IMG/VR virus record: IMGVR_UViG_3300010403_000058
Span: 1 to 22,746 of that record
DNA from: a virus
Strand: one strand, 5' to 3'
Length of the DNA stretch: 22,746 nt
This document shows, piece by piece, positions 4,889 to 9,235 of the stretch. The notes under the pieces were generated by a model. The model was not told where the DNA came from, made no database searches, and was given only the letters and a program-made list of their open reading frames with translations. Every line of letters begins with the position of its first letter. Within the stretch, counting starts at the first letter, position 1. Both the position numbers and the translations under genes were made by a program.

Positions 4889-5533
4889 TTATTTACCGGG
4901 CAGGAAGTAGGTGATCACACACTGGTTAGGAAGGTTCGTAATCTTTTCACAAATCAAAGGATTGAACCATGTCTTCAGATACTGCACTTGATGGCCGTTC
5001 GGATCACGGTATTGAGTTCTGGCATCGCCGTAGGGATCCTCGAGGATCCAAGCATCAAAGGTTTCTCCTACGATAAGCACAACGTGTCCCTGGTCGGTAA
5101 GCTTTGTGCTAACGACGACCGGAGAGCCTGACTTCAGAGCAGCGCTGATCTCCTCAGTGGTTCCATAGTTGATCCGACCTCCGCCGAGTGGTTCCCCAGC
5201 GCGGCAGACCATCTGCCCTTTTACACCTGCGGCTGCCAGACGCTGCGCGCACGCATCGCGATGTACATAGAACCAGGCACCTGTTCTACCCTTGATCCAA
5301 GGATACTTCTTCTCAGCCTCTTCTGCAATCCCGGGCTTACCGACAAGGGCTTCGGTATCATCCACGTACGCAGTTTCGTATTCTTTCGTACGAGCTATGG
5401 ATATCCAGTTGGATAGGAACATGATGAAAGAAGTGTAGGCACACTGTGCCCAGTACGGGAGGACCCCGCCCCAGTTGTCATTATCACGCTGACTGTTATA
5501 TACAATCTGGATTAACGTAGCTACTTCTTTCAT
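4889..5533 (-). CDS. C39-like cysteine peptidase, probable cell-wall peptidase
   Basis: 214 aa, with ATG at 5533 and a GAGGT ribosome binding site seven bases upstream; the start lies two bases after the transglycosylase stop. Residues resemble the papain-fold Peptidase_C39_2 group: YNSQRDN near the N-terminus (Gln15 as oxyanion-hole candidate), AQCAYTS with Cys31 as nucleophile, DQGHVVLIVG with His150, and LEDPYGD with Asp166. The order Gln, Cys, His, Asp and the spacing fit that family. Phage C39-like domains are commonly found in peptidoglycan hydrolases or tail lysins. No signal peptide or transmembrane helix is visible, so the protein would need a holin-type route or placement on the virion. 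Directly downstream of a lytic transglycosylase, it probably cleaves peptide cross-links while its neighbour cuts glycan. The substrate is inferred. Confidence 0.72.
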   Translation of the reverse strand: MKEVATLIQIVYNSQRDNDNWGGVLPYWAQCAYTSFIMFLSNWISIARTKEYETAYVDDTEALVGKPGIAEEAEKKYPWIKGRTGAWFYVHRDACAQRLAAAGVKGQMVCRAGEPLGGGRINYGTTEEISAALKSGSPVVVSTKLTDQGHVVLIVGETFDAWILEDPYGDARTQYRDPNGHQVQYLKTWFNPLICEKITNLPNQCVITYFLPGK

Positions 5534-5535
5534 GG

Positions 5536-6147
5536 TTACCTCATCCGGGGAGATCTACTCCTGATAGTCGTCTTCTCATACCGCGCAACTATTTTACTGA
5601 TGTAGTCCATGTCGTAGTAGTTACTCGACGGGCCACTGTTGTAGTTCTTCAGCGCTGTAACTACATTACCGTTGGCAAGTCGCAAACAGTACCCGAGGTA
5701 GCGAACGCCCCAATTGATATTAGTAGCCGGATCATAGAGCTCCCGGGTAGGGCCTTCGTAGTTGCTGGCCAGTACCTGCATAAGGCCGATTGCCCGCGTA
5801 CAGAAAACCACACCTTTTGCGTTTGGAATACAGACAGTGGGGCCGTCTACGCCCGCGCGACCGCTGGACTCCTGCTCCACCAGAGACACCACGAGCTCCA
5901 CCGGGACTCCGTACTCCTGACCCTTGAGCCGCATCTGGCCGTATAGATCCACCGTAAGCCATGGGTAGTAAGACTGCAAATACCTATGGCTCCCCTGTGG
6001 AATCGGAGCGGTCACCGATATTCGATCAGCGGCGTCCAGAATACCCCAGGGTTTGCGGACAAACAGGAGTAACAATAGCACAAGAGCCACGCCTCCAAAA
6101 TGGATTATCTCACGCAGGATCTGATGTAGATAGGTCTGCTGTTTCAT
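5536..6147 (-). CDS. Membrane-anchored lytic transglycosylase (SLT/GH23 fold)
   Basis: 203 aa, with ATG at 6147 and a strong GAGGAAAG ribosome binding site. The gene begins inside the last 38 bases of the phosphatase gene. One transmembrane segment lies at about residues 19-31 (GVALVLLLLLFV), with a mostly helical domain after it. SLT motifs are present in order: VEQESSG with catalytic Glu93 followed by Ser94, RAIGLMQV at 118-125, YDPATNINWGVRYLGYCL at about 138-155, and LKNYNSGP in place of the usual AYNAGP near 167-173. An inserted loop between the first two motifs has Cys106 and Cys116, which could form a disulphide outside the cytoplasm. The family cleaves the MurNAc-GlcNAc bond of peptidoglycan. 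Here it could be a signal-anchor endolysin or an infection-stage wall-opening enzyme; the gene order does not decide which. Confidence 0.9.
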   Translation of the reverse strand: MKQQTYLHQILREIIHFGGVALVLLLLLFVRKPWGILDAADRISVTAPIPQGSHRYLQSYYPWLTVDLYGQMRLKGQEYGVPVELVVSLVEQESSGRAGVDGPTVCIPNAKGVVFCTRAIGLMQVLASNYEGPTRELYDPATNINWGVRYLGYCLRLANGNVVTALKNYNSGPSSNYYDMDYISKIVARYEKTTIRSRSPRMR

Positions 6148-7378
6148 TTTGACTTTCCTCGAATGGTGGTAAATTGTAAGAGATTACGACAGATGTTTGA
6201 TCGTCGTCACGATCCCGATTGGCTGCACCGTCTGTGAGAACCACGAGGTTATCGCCGGGATTCAGTTTAATCGTATGACTGGGGGGCACTATGTACCCGG
6301 GGTCTTTGCCCAGAAACCGCCCATTGCACTCCACCTTTTCCTCTTCTCCAGTAGCCATACGGACAATGCATATCTTATCCAGCAGACCATTATATACCAC
6401 TGTGCCGTCCGGCCGGAGTCGAAGACAGATAGCCAGCGTCTCACCTCCGTTCTCTTTATCGATATCGAGCAGAGCTGCATTGATCCCCTCAATCACCCGC
6501 CTCGGGTTCCGGGTGCGGAGCACGGAGAGGACGTTCATACAGAGAGAAGCTCCCGGGGTAACGTTGAGCCCGTGAGACACCACGTCTCCCACCAGCACTA
6601 TCATATCATCCCCGACAGCCTTACAGCGCACGTAGTCAGCCCCGATGTATTTGTCCGGGAAGCGCGTGAGCGAAAGTATGCTGTAATGGCCGTGCGTTAT
6701 ATAGCCATCTGGCTTGATCATATTCTGGTAAGCGCCCGCTATAACCTTGGGGATCCAGATGTTCCGGATATCGGAATCAAGGGCTTCCAGTTCTTTCGTC
6801 TTACGACTCAGAACCCAACCGATCATCATATAGTGGATCACCATATGAATGAATGCCCACTTGTTAACGTAGACCATTACACTGGTCTTACCATAGACGC
6901 CCACGAACCGATCATCAAATGCAACGTAGGCAGAGGCCCATGACATCATACAAACCAATACAGTAGCGTATTTCACATGTCGACTGGTGCCAATAAGAGC
7001 CACGAACATTAGTTGCACTACGAACACTAGCTTCTGGAGTCCGAAGAAGATTGCTTCATTCCTTGAGGGTACTAGCCATTGCGTGAGCCAGAATAAGAAA
7101 GTCGTCTGTATTGTTGGGAGCGCATAACCGATAACATTCAAGTTGCGCATAACAAGGCTTATGTTGTAGCGCCCATAGATCGCGAGCCCGATAAACCCGA
7201 TCATCATCGCGTAAACGTATTTGTAAGACCACAGAGGATAGTTCGTGGATATTGCAGCTGTAGTTGTGATGCCGGTGAATAACAGTCCGAAGACGATATT
7301 CAGATTGAGAACGAAGCTGAGATTGTTACGTGTGGTGGAGCTGAGAGCCGAATTGACCTGGGATTCGAGTGGCGACAA
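6110..7378 (-). CDS. Six-helix membrane protein with SpoIIE-type PP2C phosphatase domain
   Basis: 422 aa from a TTG at 7378, with AGGGG eight bases upstream. An in-frame TGA lies just before the TTG, and the next plausible start is Met58, which would remove two membrane helices, so the TTG is preferred. About six hydrophobic segments fill residues 21-190, then a linker helix (193-210), then a PP2C-type serine/threonine phosphatase of the SpoIIE/RsbU group. Metal-ligand motifs are intact: IGADYV with Asp248, VGDVVSHG with Asp265, LTDGAAN with Asp383, and a DDDQT run with Asp392/393. In bacteria this family dephosphorylates STAS-domain anti-anti-sigma factors. The gene overlaps the ATPase gene by 53 bases and the transglycosylase gene by 38. 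The last 20 residues are acidic and polar. The phosphatase assignment is firm; its target and signal are inferred. Confidence 0.9.
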   Translation of the reverse strand: MSPLESQVNSALSSTTRNNLSFVLNLNIVFGLLFTGITTTAAISTNYPLWSYKYVYAMMIGFIGLAIYGRYNISLVMRNLNVIGYALPTIQTTFLFWLTQWLVPSRNEAIFFGLQKLVFVVQLMFVALIGTSRHVKYATVLVCMMSWASAYVAFDDRFVGVYGKTSVMVYVNKWAFIHMVIHYMMIGWVLSRKTKELEALDSDIRNIWIPKVIAGAYQNMIKPDGYITHGHYSILSLTRFPDKYIGADYVRCKAVGDDMIVLVGDVVSHGLNVTPGASLCMNVLSVLRTRNPRRVIEGINAALLDIDKENGGETLAICLRLRPDGTVVYNGLLDKICIVRMATGEEEKVECNGRFLGKDPGYIVPPSHTIKLNPGDNLVVLTDGAANRDRDDDQTSVVISYNLPPFEESQNETADLSTSDPA

Positions 7379-7781
7379 TCTTCATACCCCTACAGTTAAA
7401 TCGTTCTACTGAAAGATCCCACCCACTGGACAGGATGGTGAGAAATCCTTTTCCCCCGTACTCTGCCGGTGAGCTTTCTTCTATCTTGCCCCGCTCTCCA
7501 TTTCTGAGCATATGTCTTGCTTTATAAATTAAAGCCATCACGTGATCATAGACACTCGGATCTGGAATCTCTTGATCCGTTTCGATTACATCGTCGGTAA
7601 CCGATAGATGTCCAGGACACCCGGAGGCTACCATATTCTCAACGAGCTCCTGGGCTATAAATCGTTGCTCGATATATACATGGGTCTCAAGCATTTCCAT
7701 CTGGAGACGTACAACGTCCTGCGCGTCATGGATTTCAAAAACAGTCGCTATCTCATTTTGTTTGGATGTGGATGTTTTCAT
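7326..7781 (-). CDS. Probable RsbW/SpoIIAB-type anti-sigma ATPase-fold protein
   Basis: 151 aa, ATG at 7781 inside the last 29 bases of the preceding gene, with a modest GAG ribosome binding site. The layout follows small HATPase_c_2 anti-sigma kinases: an N-terminal strand and helix (FEIHDAQDVVRLQMEML), the N-box AQELVENMVASG with Glu45 and Asn49 in the expected Glu-x3-Asn spacing, and a G2-like YGGKGFLTILSSG at about 108-120. A final strand pair ends RGMKIVATRI. The usual DxGxG G1 box between these is not visible; the matching stretch reads ETDQEIPDPS. ATP binding may therefore be weak or lost, leaving a binding-only switch protein. Position between a STAS-like protein and a SpoIIE-type phosphatase supports the call. 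Without that context the sequence alone would be only suggestive. Confidence 0.62.
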   Translation of the reverse strand: MKTSTSKQNEIATVFEIHDAQDVVRLQMEMLETHVYIEQRFIAQELVENMVASGCPGHLSVTDDVIETDQEIPDPSVYDHVMALIYKARHMLRNGERGKIEESSPAEYGGKGFLTILSSGWDLSVERFNCRGMKIVATRIPGQFGSQLHHT

Positions 7782-8307
7782 AATTCTCGAAGACGTTCAG
7801 TAAGACCATCTGATCCGAGAGTGCAATGATGTTCAGAGAGCCAAACTGCTTAGCCTTGTCCTCCAATAGTGATACGAGCGGGGACGTAATGTTGCAGCGG
7901 AGTTCCACAGTGTTGCCTGCAGTCCAGAGCCGATCCAGAACTCCATAAAGCGGGATGTGGCTTTTGTTCCAGAGGTTACCGTAGATAACCACATGAGGCT
8001 CGGGGATCTTGAAACCGATCTTCTCTGTCCCGACCATAGTATAGGCGGAGTACTCGTCGGAGACCAGTGCTAGTTCAGTTTGCTGGTCTCCGTTTTGTAC
8101 TACTTGAGACCCTGAAGACGCTACCTGAGACGGAGCAGCCGCCTGTGGAGTCATCCGGCCCGTCAGTATCCGATTACCGTTCAGGGGGTTTGAAAGACCG
8201 TATTGGAGAATCAGATAACCCGCAACAGACCCGATCAGGATGATCAGGAACATGAGCGGTATAAAGGTACCCCAGAAGCCCAGCTGGTGAAACATCTCAG
8301 CAAACAT
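7753..8307 (-). CDS. Membrane-anchored protein with STAS-like C-terminal domain
   Basis: 184 aa with ATG at 8307. One transmembrane helix lies at about residues 13-36 (FIPLMFLIILIGSVAGYLIL). An Ala/Ser/Gln-rich linker covers about 45-80, and a globular domain follows to the end. That domain has strand-helix alternation like STAS (SpoIIAA/RsbV) domains: PHVVIYGNL, a helix LYGVLDRLWTAG, a strand VELRCN, a TSPLVSLLEDKA segment, GSLNIIAL, then QMVLLNVFENYENIHI. TSPL around Ser142 could stand where the phosphorylated D-S-S-G loop sits, but the loop is about five residues short and lacks the Asp. The STAS assignment is tentative and leans on the next two genes. It starts the three-gene block directly after the tail tube gene, and its start lies in the loop of a 12-bp inverted repeat. 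Confidence 0.45.
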   Translation of the reverse strand: MFAEMFHQLGFWGTFIPLMFLIILIGSVAGYLILQYGLSNPLNGNRILTGRMTPQAAAPSQVASSGSQVVQNGDQQTELALVSDEYSAYTMVGTEKIGFKIPEPHVVIYGNLWNKSHIPLYGVLDRLWTAGNTVELRCNITSPLVSLLEDKAKQFGSLNIIALSDQMVLLNVFENYENIHIQTK

Positions 8308-8353: not shown

Positions 8354-9235
8354 CTACGCCTGCCCTAGAACCCGGGCGTTGTTGCCGGTGGTGGCGGTAG
8401 TAACCGTAGCGCCGACCTGAGAAGAATCGGTAAGGCTGGTCACCCCGCCGTAGATCGATTCCTTCTGCTGACCGTTGTTGAGGCTGTACCAGGGCAGACG
8501 CGTAATGGCGATATAGGTCATTTGTTGTTCGTTGGTGATGTCATCCATGGAGATACCACCACCTTCGTTGATCACCTCTACCCCGAGCACACCGGCTGCG
8601 GAAGCGTGGCCGTATTCGTTCTGAGCGATGAGCGTGATATCGAAAGGCATGACCTGGTCGGCAAACTGCGCGCTGCGCTTTACTGTCCGCGCACCGACGA
8701 AGCCACCTGCAGAGGTCTGGCCTGCCTGGAGCGCTACAGGGTTTGCACCCTGATTCACCACTGCCGGCGGAGGCGTGAGCGGCTGTCCCGTAACTGGATC
8801 CAGATTCCCCTGATCTACAGAGAAGTTCTGACCGTTCGCTCCGAGTCCTGCTAGCTGGCCATTCTGGCCTACGTTCGCGTTCGCGCCCTGGAAGTTCTGG
8901 TAGTATAGCCCGATCGCCATGGAAGCGTTAATCGGGTTCGTCAGCCAGTTGATCTCGTCTGCGTGAGCGAAGTACTTGTGATCGTCCGAGAGGAACAACC
9001 CGTAAAACGCATCTCGATCGAAGAGCGTGAACATCATCGAACCGGCCGTACCGCGCTTACCGCGAGAGATCGACCTAGGGTTCGCGCTACCGAAAGTATA
9101 GACGGGCGCCTTCTCTCTGGTGACAGAGATCGCTATCCCCGTCATAGTAGCCAGGGAGATATTGTCAAAGATCGCCGTGATATCCACCCCCGAATAGGTG
9201 GTATATGTTTTGGTAAATATTGATCCGAGTCCCAT
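8354..9235 (-). CDS. Probable tail tube protein
   Basis: 293 aa, with ATG at 9235 and a GAGGAGAGG ribosome binding site upstream. It follows the sheath gene by 18 bases, the classic sheath-then-tube order of contractile tails. The N-terminal region (residues 33-75) carries ISVTREKAPVYTFGSANP followed by RSISRGKRGTAGSMMFTLF, a conserved pattern I associate with virion tube-like proteins of large myoviruses. Residues about 115-190 are an Asn/Gln/Gly/Pro-rich stretch that looks inserted into the beta-rich fold and may be surface exposed. The C-terminal part returns to strand-rich sequence. Tube proteins stack as hexamers inside the sheath and form the DNA channel. The call rests on position and the N-terminal pattern; another small virion structural protein is possible. 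Confidence 0.68.
   Translation of the reverse strand: MGLGSIFTKTYTTYSGVDITAIFDNISLATMTGIAISVTREKAPVYTFGSANPRSISRGKRGTAGSMMFTLFDRDAFYGLFLSDDHKYFAHADEINWLTNPINASMAIGLYYQNFQGANANVGQNGQLAGLGANGQNFSVDQGNLDPVTGQPLTPPPAVVNQGANPVALQAGQTSAGGFVGARTVKRSAQFADQVMPFDITLIAQNEYGHASAAGVLGVEVINEGGGISMDDITNEQQMTYIAITRLPWYSLNNGQQKESIYGGVTSLTDSSQVGATVTTATTGNNARVLGQA

Follow-up and report, generated by a model that had tools for sequence, protein, structure and literature searches.

A SpoIIE-family phosphatase, a predicted kinase, and a predicted STAS protein form a candidate partner-switching cassette among phage virion genes

Partner switching is a main bacterial route from phosphorylation to the control of sigma factors, cyclic-di-GMP synthesis, and immune operons. 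Here we analyzed a 22.7-kb virus record from a tailed phage (IMGVR_UViG_3300010403_000058; the whole stretch of 22,746 nt is called the window below), in which a first-pass annotation had noticed three overlapping genes resembling such a system inside a virion operon. The portal, capsid (PF25209), sheath, and tube-like genes of the window all lie on the minus strand, as does a cassette of four genes set between the tail-tube-like gene (positions 8354 to 9235, minus strand) and a gene for a C39-like cysteine peptidase (4889 to 5533, minus strand). The cassette runs in the order s184, k151, a SpoIIE-like phosphatase gene, and a gene for an SLT-type lytic transglycosylase, with successive overlaps of 29, 53, and 38 nt; the minus-strand trio and the transglycosylase gene that overlaps the phosphatase gene were all found where first annotated. 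The proposal of a partner-switching-type trio in a virion operon also stands, with the phosphatase recognized by its sequence, the kinase predicted from fold, motifs, and a ranked profile search, and the STAS protein predicted only through its modeled fold.

The phosphatase gene (6110 to 7378, minus strand; 422 residues) begins with TTG, with AGGGG 8 nt upstream. Its product matches the SpoIIE family (PF07228) at 36.7 bits, and the corresponding protein of a related 47-kb phage contig, IMGVR_UViG_3300043411_000460 (hereafter the relative), does so at 33.6 bits, both over the curated Pfam cut-off of 25. The metal ligands D248, D265, D383, and D393, which belong to the GAD, GDV, TDG, and DD motifs, are invariant in both phage copies and three cellular enzymes, confirming the intact SpoIIE-type ligands read at first; the TDG and D-x-T motifs are among the residues invariant in the same comparison. 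About 43 residues between TDG and DD are absent from both phage copies when aligned with the cellular enzymes, and the phosphatase domain is therefore a compact form; the family match does not depend on the missing segment. Four to six membrane helices make up the N-terminal half: hydropathy gives four clear helices in the window copy and six in the relative, so the six-helix description fits the latter and not the former. The N termini of the two copies resemble each other (MSPL in the window, MSESSPL in the relative). The sole cellular match to this phosphatase in a plasmid collection came from Phyllobacterium (L069; 23.5% identity over 69% of the query, E 9e-4).

The predicted kinase is the product of k151 (7326 to 7781, minus strand), a small GHKL-type protein for which no convincing family match was obtained in Pfam, PHROGs, NCBIfam, or PADLOC. 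Its AlphaFold2 model, built from a two-sequence alignment (predicted local distance difference test score [pLDDT], 78; predicted template modeling score, 0.74), has top 11 structural matches that are all of the RsbW/SpoIIAB/SiaB type, either anti-sigma kinases or SiaB, at Z 11.3 to 8.3, where models without a clear structural match typically reach Z 7 to 8. The best match is SiaB (Z 11.3, root mean square deviation 6.2, 133 residues aligned), and UsfX (Z 9.9, deviation 2.7, 107 aligned), SpoIIAB (Z 9.2, deviation 3.1, 114 aligned), RsbW (Z 8.9), and Rv1364c entries are likewise among these 11. A profile built from nine cellular kinases only and searched against the 171 open reading frames of the two phages ranked the kinase of the relative first and k151 second; taken singly, their E-values (0.14 and 0.58) are weak. 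Shuffled copies scored as high in 26 of 2000 cases for k151 and in 11 of 2000 for its homologue. Moreover, alignment with eight of these cellular kinases left E45, N49, G110, and G112 as the sole invariant residues, which are the positions of the N-box (E45-x3-N49) and G2 (G110-x-G112), so that the RsbW-type motifs first noticed in this protein agree with the fold model. A single-sequence profile comparison with a rhizobial kinase matched only the N-box stretch (P 0.0087), and hmmscan reported neither DUF6272 (SiaB) nor DUF1987 (SiaC) at E <= 1 for the window copies or E <= 5 for the relative. We conclude that k151 is predicted, with support, to be a kinase of the RsbW/SpoIIAB/SiaB fold.

The first gene of the cassette, s184 (7753 to 8307, minus strand), encodes one N-terminal membrane helix (residues 10 to 36, approximately), a low-confidence linker (about 37 to 88), and a C-terminal domain (about 88 to 184) modeled as beta-beta-beta-alpha-beta-alpha-beta-alpha-beta. 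The structural neighbors of this model are RsfB (Z 8.9), an anti-sigma antagonist (8.5), RsbV (8.4), SiaC (8.1), and further STAS domains (to 7.2), and the first match given by Foldseek is SiaC of the SiaB-SiaC complex. No convincing family membership was found for s184 in the four collections searched with k151. The earlier description of a membrane-anchored, STAS-like protein thus holds for the membrane helix and agrees with the fold matches of a weak model, but draws no support from sequence profiles. As far as the models go, the 184-aa and 151-aa proteins do not have folds unrelated to such a circuit; they match STAS/SiaC and RsbW/SiaB, respectively. A stretch of four residues, N139-I140-T141-S142 (codons at 7882 to 7893, minus strand), is invariant in both phages and would lie at the N terminus of alpha2 (predicted helix 142 to 155), a position that depends on the fold model. 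The phosphorylated residue of SiaC, T68, lies within LLYLNTSSIK, at the N terminus of alpha2 (PMC7647112). By analogy with this threonine and with the serine of RsbV/SpoIIAA, T141 or S142 is a candidate phosphorylation site in what we predict to be a membrane-anchored STAS/SiaC-like domain.

The cassette recurs in the relative, whose capsid, sheath, and tube are 62%, 62%, and 81% identical to those of the window. Downstream of the homologous tail genes, this phage carries s173, k136, SpoIIE-416, and SLT-182 in the same order and again overlapping, so conservation of the trio extends to a related phage, and chance resemblance is discounted by this recurrence of the gene order in another phage contig. 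Identities between the two cassettes are 29% for the s proteins, 24% for the kinases, 30% for the phosphatases, and 45% for the transglycosylases. The catalytic residues are retained despite identities as low as these (24 to 45%), and the cassette appears to be old, since its proteins diverged far while these residues stayed. The GC content of each cassette (0.49 in the window, 0.39 in the relative) tracks that of its phage genome (52% and 37 to 40%), suggesting long residence. The difference of about 12 to 15 points between the genomes, despite tubes that are 81% identical, also suggests different hosts.

The fourth member of the conserved cassette, the transglycosylase gene (5536 to 6147, minus strand), encodes 203 residues with one N-terminal hydrophobic helix (residues 10 to 28) and a PF01464 match (E 3.7e-13); membrane segments are thus predicted in s184, the phosphatase, and the transglycosylase alike. 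The next relative (L014; tube 72%, sheath 51%) has a 332-aa gene at the cassette site, followed by a C39 peptidase gene near the same place as in the window. Between the tube and cassette genes, the relative has three extra genes (L002 18396-20993), one of which encodes 527 aa with a weak Pfam match and is possibly a metallophosphoesterase gene; in place of the C39 peptidase gene of the window, it carries one for a GDSL-type hydrolase (L006 2956-3690). This stretch resembles a hotspot of gene exchange. The other flanking gene of the window, called tube by its position after the sheath, matches phrog_9206, which PHROGs names major head protein; this label looks wrong here, since the gene directly follows the sheath gene and Phage_capsid_4 is matched by another protein, of 495 aa. 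In IMGVR_UViG_3300037225_000815 (L009 2157-4265), a further tube-like gene, longer than the first (439 aa), comes after the tube-like gene, which points to a duplication.

Beyond the relatives, phosphatase, kinase-type, and s184 queries against 50,697 phage records matched only mislabeled host contigs and unverified contigs; the phosphatase from either phage had no match in this collection, nor did s184. A cellular SpoIIE query retrieved only two Staphylococcus records, of which the one examined is a host sigB contig. The record OR845010.1 (Staphylococcus phage SA 1306 Kay) carries alanine-racemase-like and MazF-like genes followed by rsbU, rsbV, rsbW, and sigB, and is a host chromosome contig mislabeled as phage. 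Three UNVERIFIED fecal "Bacteriophage sp." records (MT835480, MT835652, and MT835993) encode SpoIIAB/RsbW-like proteins of 30 to 36% identity, which are either bacterial contamination or phage-borne anti-sigma factors. No small RsbW-like protein was convincingly matched in a viral structure library, where the few named relevant matches are histidine kinases, and the Protein Data Bank gave no convincing match when searched by sequence with the three alignments. Comparisons of single-sequence profiles were uninformative against RsbW and RsbV, and equally so for the phosphatase paired with RsbU, which served as the known positive. Viral scans with the phosphatase, s184, and sheath alignments yielded no third copy of the cassette, and a pattern scan of bacterial genomes with the phosphatase or tube yielded no relatives and therefore no host clue. 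A defense-system reading was rejected, with no PADLOC match. The open-access literature searched holds no description of a phage partner switch, and a survey of 224 jumbo phages does not mention PP2C or SpoIIE; the literature and collections searched thus agree with the first-pass annotation in showing no described phage module of this kind, although a lack of matches there is no proof. As far as could be checked, novelty lies in how these components of known kinds are combined, in the tethering of the substrate, in the compact form of the phosphatase, and in their occurrence in a phage.

We propose, with a probability of roughly 60%, that the cassette is a membrane-tethered Ser/Thr partner-switching module like SiaABC, carried by the phage and expressed along with its virion genes. 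In such a module, k151 would transfer phosphate to T141 or S142 in the tethered STAS domain of s184, and the multi-pass PP2C protein would sense the state of the membrane or envelope and remove the phosphate. Depending on its phosphorylation, s184 would then hold either k151 or a third partner at the membrane's inner face. The module would probably act late in infection; both the direction of signaling and the late expression are what we infer. Several observations weigh against this proposal. The G1 motif, D-x-G-x-G, is absent from both phage kinases, and k151 may therefore bind ATP poorly and may be atypical or inactive. Confidence in the s184 model is low (mean pLDDT 58, about 60 to 78 in the domain), the best Z it gives, 8.9, barely exceeds the usual background, and s184 matches STAS neither in Pfam nor with a five-sequence STAS profile, which is a weak test for such divergent sequences. 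No partner or target gene was seen: among the proteins scanned in the window and the relative, none was recognized as a sigma factor, a diguanylate cyclase, or a DNA-binding output, and both contigs are fragments of incomplete genomes. Finally, the cassette is known from two contigs only and is absent from the corresponding site in L014. None of the 50 tube-sharing records, L014 included, has a SpoIIE match, so that the cassette belongs to the accessory genes of a small clade.

What the proposed module acts on can be narrowed only tentatively. Envelope or lysis control is weakly favored, at less than even odds, because the transglycosylase gene constantly accompanies the trio, and a host regulator, be it a sigma factor, a diguanylate cyclase, or a kinase/STAS immunity controller such as CapK/CapS, is a slightly less likely candidate. 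A narrower form of our proposal, possible although we doubt it, has the membrane phosphatase sense the membrane and, through s184, gate the transglycosylase or the moment of lysis, or block superinfection. The transglycosylase gene overlaps the phosphatase gene as the fourth conserved member in both phages, and three of the four proteins have membrane segments. However, the SLT domain is expected outside the cytoplasm and the STAS and kinase domains inside it, so direct contact would need membrane helices, and an SLT domain encoded next to tail genes is often part of the virion (PHROGs matches to lytic tail proteins). The most specific version, in which a membrane-sensing switch of the virus's own, made of the compact PP2C, the G1-less kinase, and the tethered STAS protein, times lysis or remodels the envelope late through the linked transglycosylase, seems rather unlikely as it stands. 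It is also unlikely that the cassette switches transcription, with k151 serving as an anti-sigma factor, or s184 titrating one that belongs to the host, and a host sigma factor being released or blocked as a result. UsfX, SpoIIAB, and RsbW are the next-best structural matches of k151 (Z 9.9 to 8.6), RsfB and RsbV are among the best of s184, and the RbaVWY partner-switching set of Rhodobacter, for which no sigma factor has been identified, is a precedent in that it controls production of the phage-like gene transfer agent RcGTA (PMC3999984). Nevertheless, no sigma factor gene lies beside the trio, unlike in rsbV-rsbW-sigB loci, s184 is membrane anchored, k151 is nearest to SiaB, whose circuit governs a diguanylate cyclase rather than a sigma factor, and timing with virion genes would be odd for retargeting transcription; the sigma-factor target first suggested for the module thus finds no direct support, and the blocking of a host envelope-stress response or the timing of lysis, suggested along with it, are likewise only candidate roles.

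The missing G1 box and the weak s184 model, with no STAS profile match, would also fit a cassette whose phosphatase is the sole enzyme and acts on a host phosphoprotein, with k151 a pseudokinase or an adaptor that activates it, as RsbT activates RsbU, and s184 an unrelated membrane protein. We consider this improbable: the N-box residues E45 and N49 and the G2 motif survive at 24% identity, the N-I-T-S stretch is invariant and the s184 gene stays adjacent, and a canonical G1 is likewise missing from the DUF6272-like kinases whose genes, in rhizobia, stand between those for SpoIIE and STAS proteins. An artifact, whether bacterial DNA joined to a phage contig or chance resemblance, is largely refuted and hardly credible. 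Mislabeled bacterial contigs do occur in phage collections, as OR845010 with its host rsbU-rsbV-rsbW-sigB genes shows, but here two contigs of different GC content carry the cassette in the same order downstream of homologous tail genes, its genes overlap, and its GC content follows the phage.

A complete set in a phage, kept across lineages of very different GC content, would imply that viruses operate circuits of this type in their own right, and the cassette would offer a compact system for studying the reading of a membrane signal in the course of infection. The G1-less kinase and the shortened PP2C domain are natural tests of which enzyme parts are dispensable. If remodeling of the envelope or the timing of lysis through the linked transglycosylase proves to be its role, the cassette would be a phage decision circuit of a kind not described before.

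In RsbUVW, the output of partner switching is a sigma factor. The phage set shares with RsbU-RsbV-RsbW and SpoIIE-SpoIIAA-SpoIIAB adjacent genes for a SpoIIE-family phosphatase, a predicted RsbW-fold kinase with N-box and G2, and a predicted STAS-fold substrate, but it has no sigma factor gene and no kinase G1 box, its predicted STAS protein is tethered, and it lies in a virion operon. Rhizobial plasmid loci (L069, Phyllobacterium) likewise place a SpoIIE gene beside genes for a DUF6272-like kinase with no canonical G1 and a STAS protein, whereas they have a full-length Cache-HAMP sensor phosphatase, a soluble STAS protein, another gene order, and no transglycosylase. In the CapK-CapS system of phage-host conflict, a GHKL kinase phosphorylates its STAS partner on an alpha2 serine, and CapS itself represses immune operons (PMC13373217). 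The pairing of a GHKL kinase with a STAS partner and an alpha2 phospho-residue is alike, although predicted on the phage side; CapK, however, has helix-turn-helix and STAS domains and CapS a winged helix, domains to which the phage proteins have no Pfam match, and the description of CapK and CapS does not include a membrane phosphatase (PMC13373217). In SiaABCD, the substrate SiaC controls a diguanylate cyclase (PMC7278518), and neither phage cassette has a gene for that cyclase, SiaD; the predicted phage substrate is membrane anchored, the catalytic domain of the phage phosphatase is shortened, the gene order is reversed, and k151, unlike SiaB, has no reported Pfam DUF6272 match. Yet with SiaABC of Pseudomonas aeruginosa (SiaB-SiaC complex, 6kko) the phage cassette shares a membrane PP2C phosphatase, a predicted small GHKL-like kinase, and a predicted SiaC-type substrate, in which the threonine phosphorylated within N-T-S-S at the start of alpha2 has its predicted counterpart in the N-I-T-S of s184.

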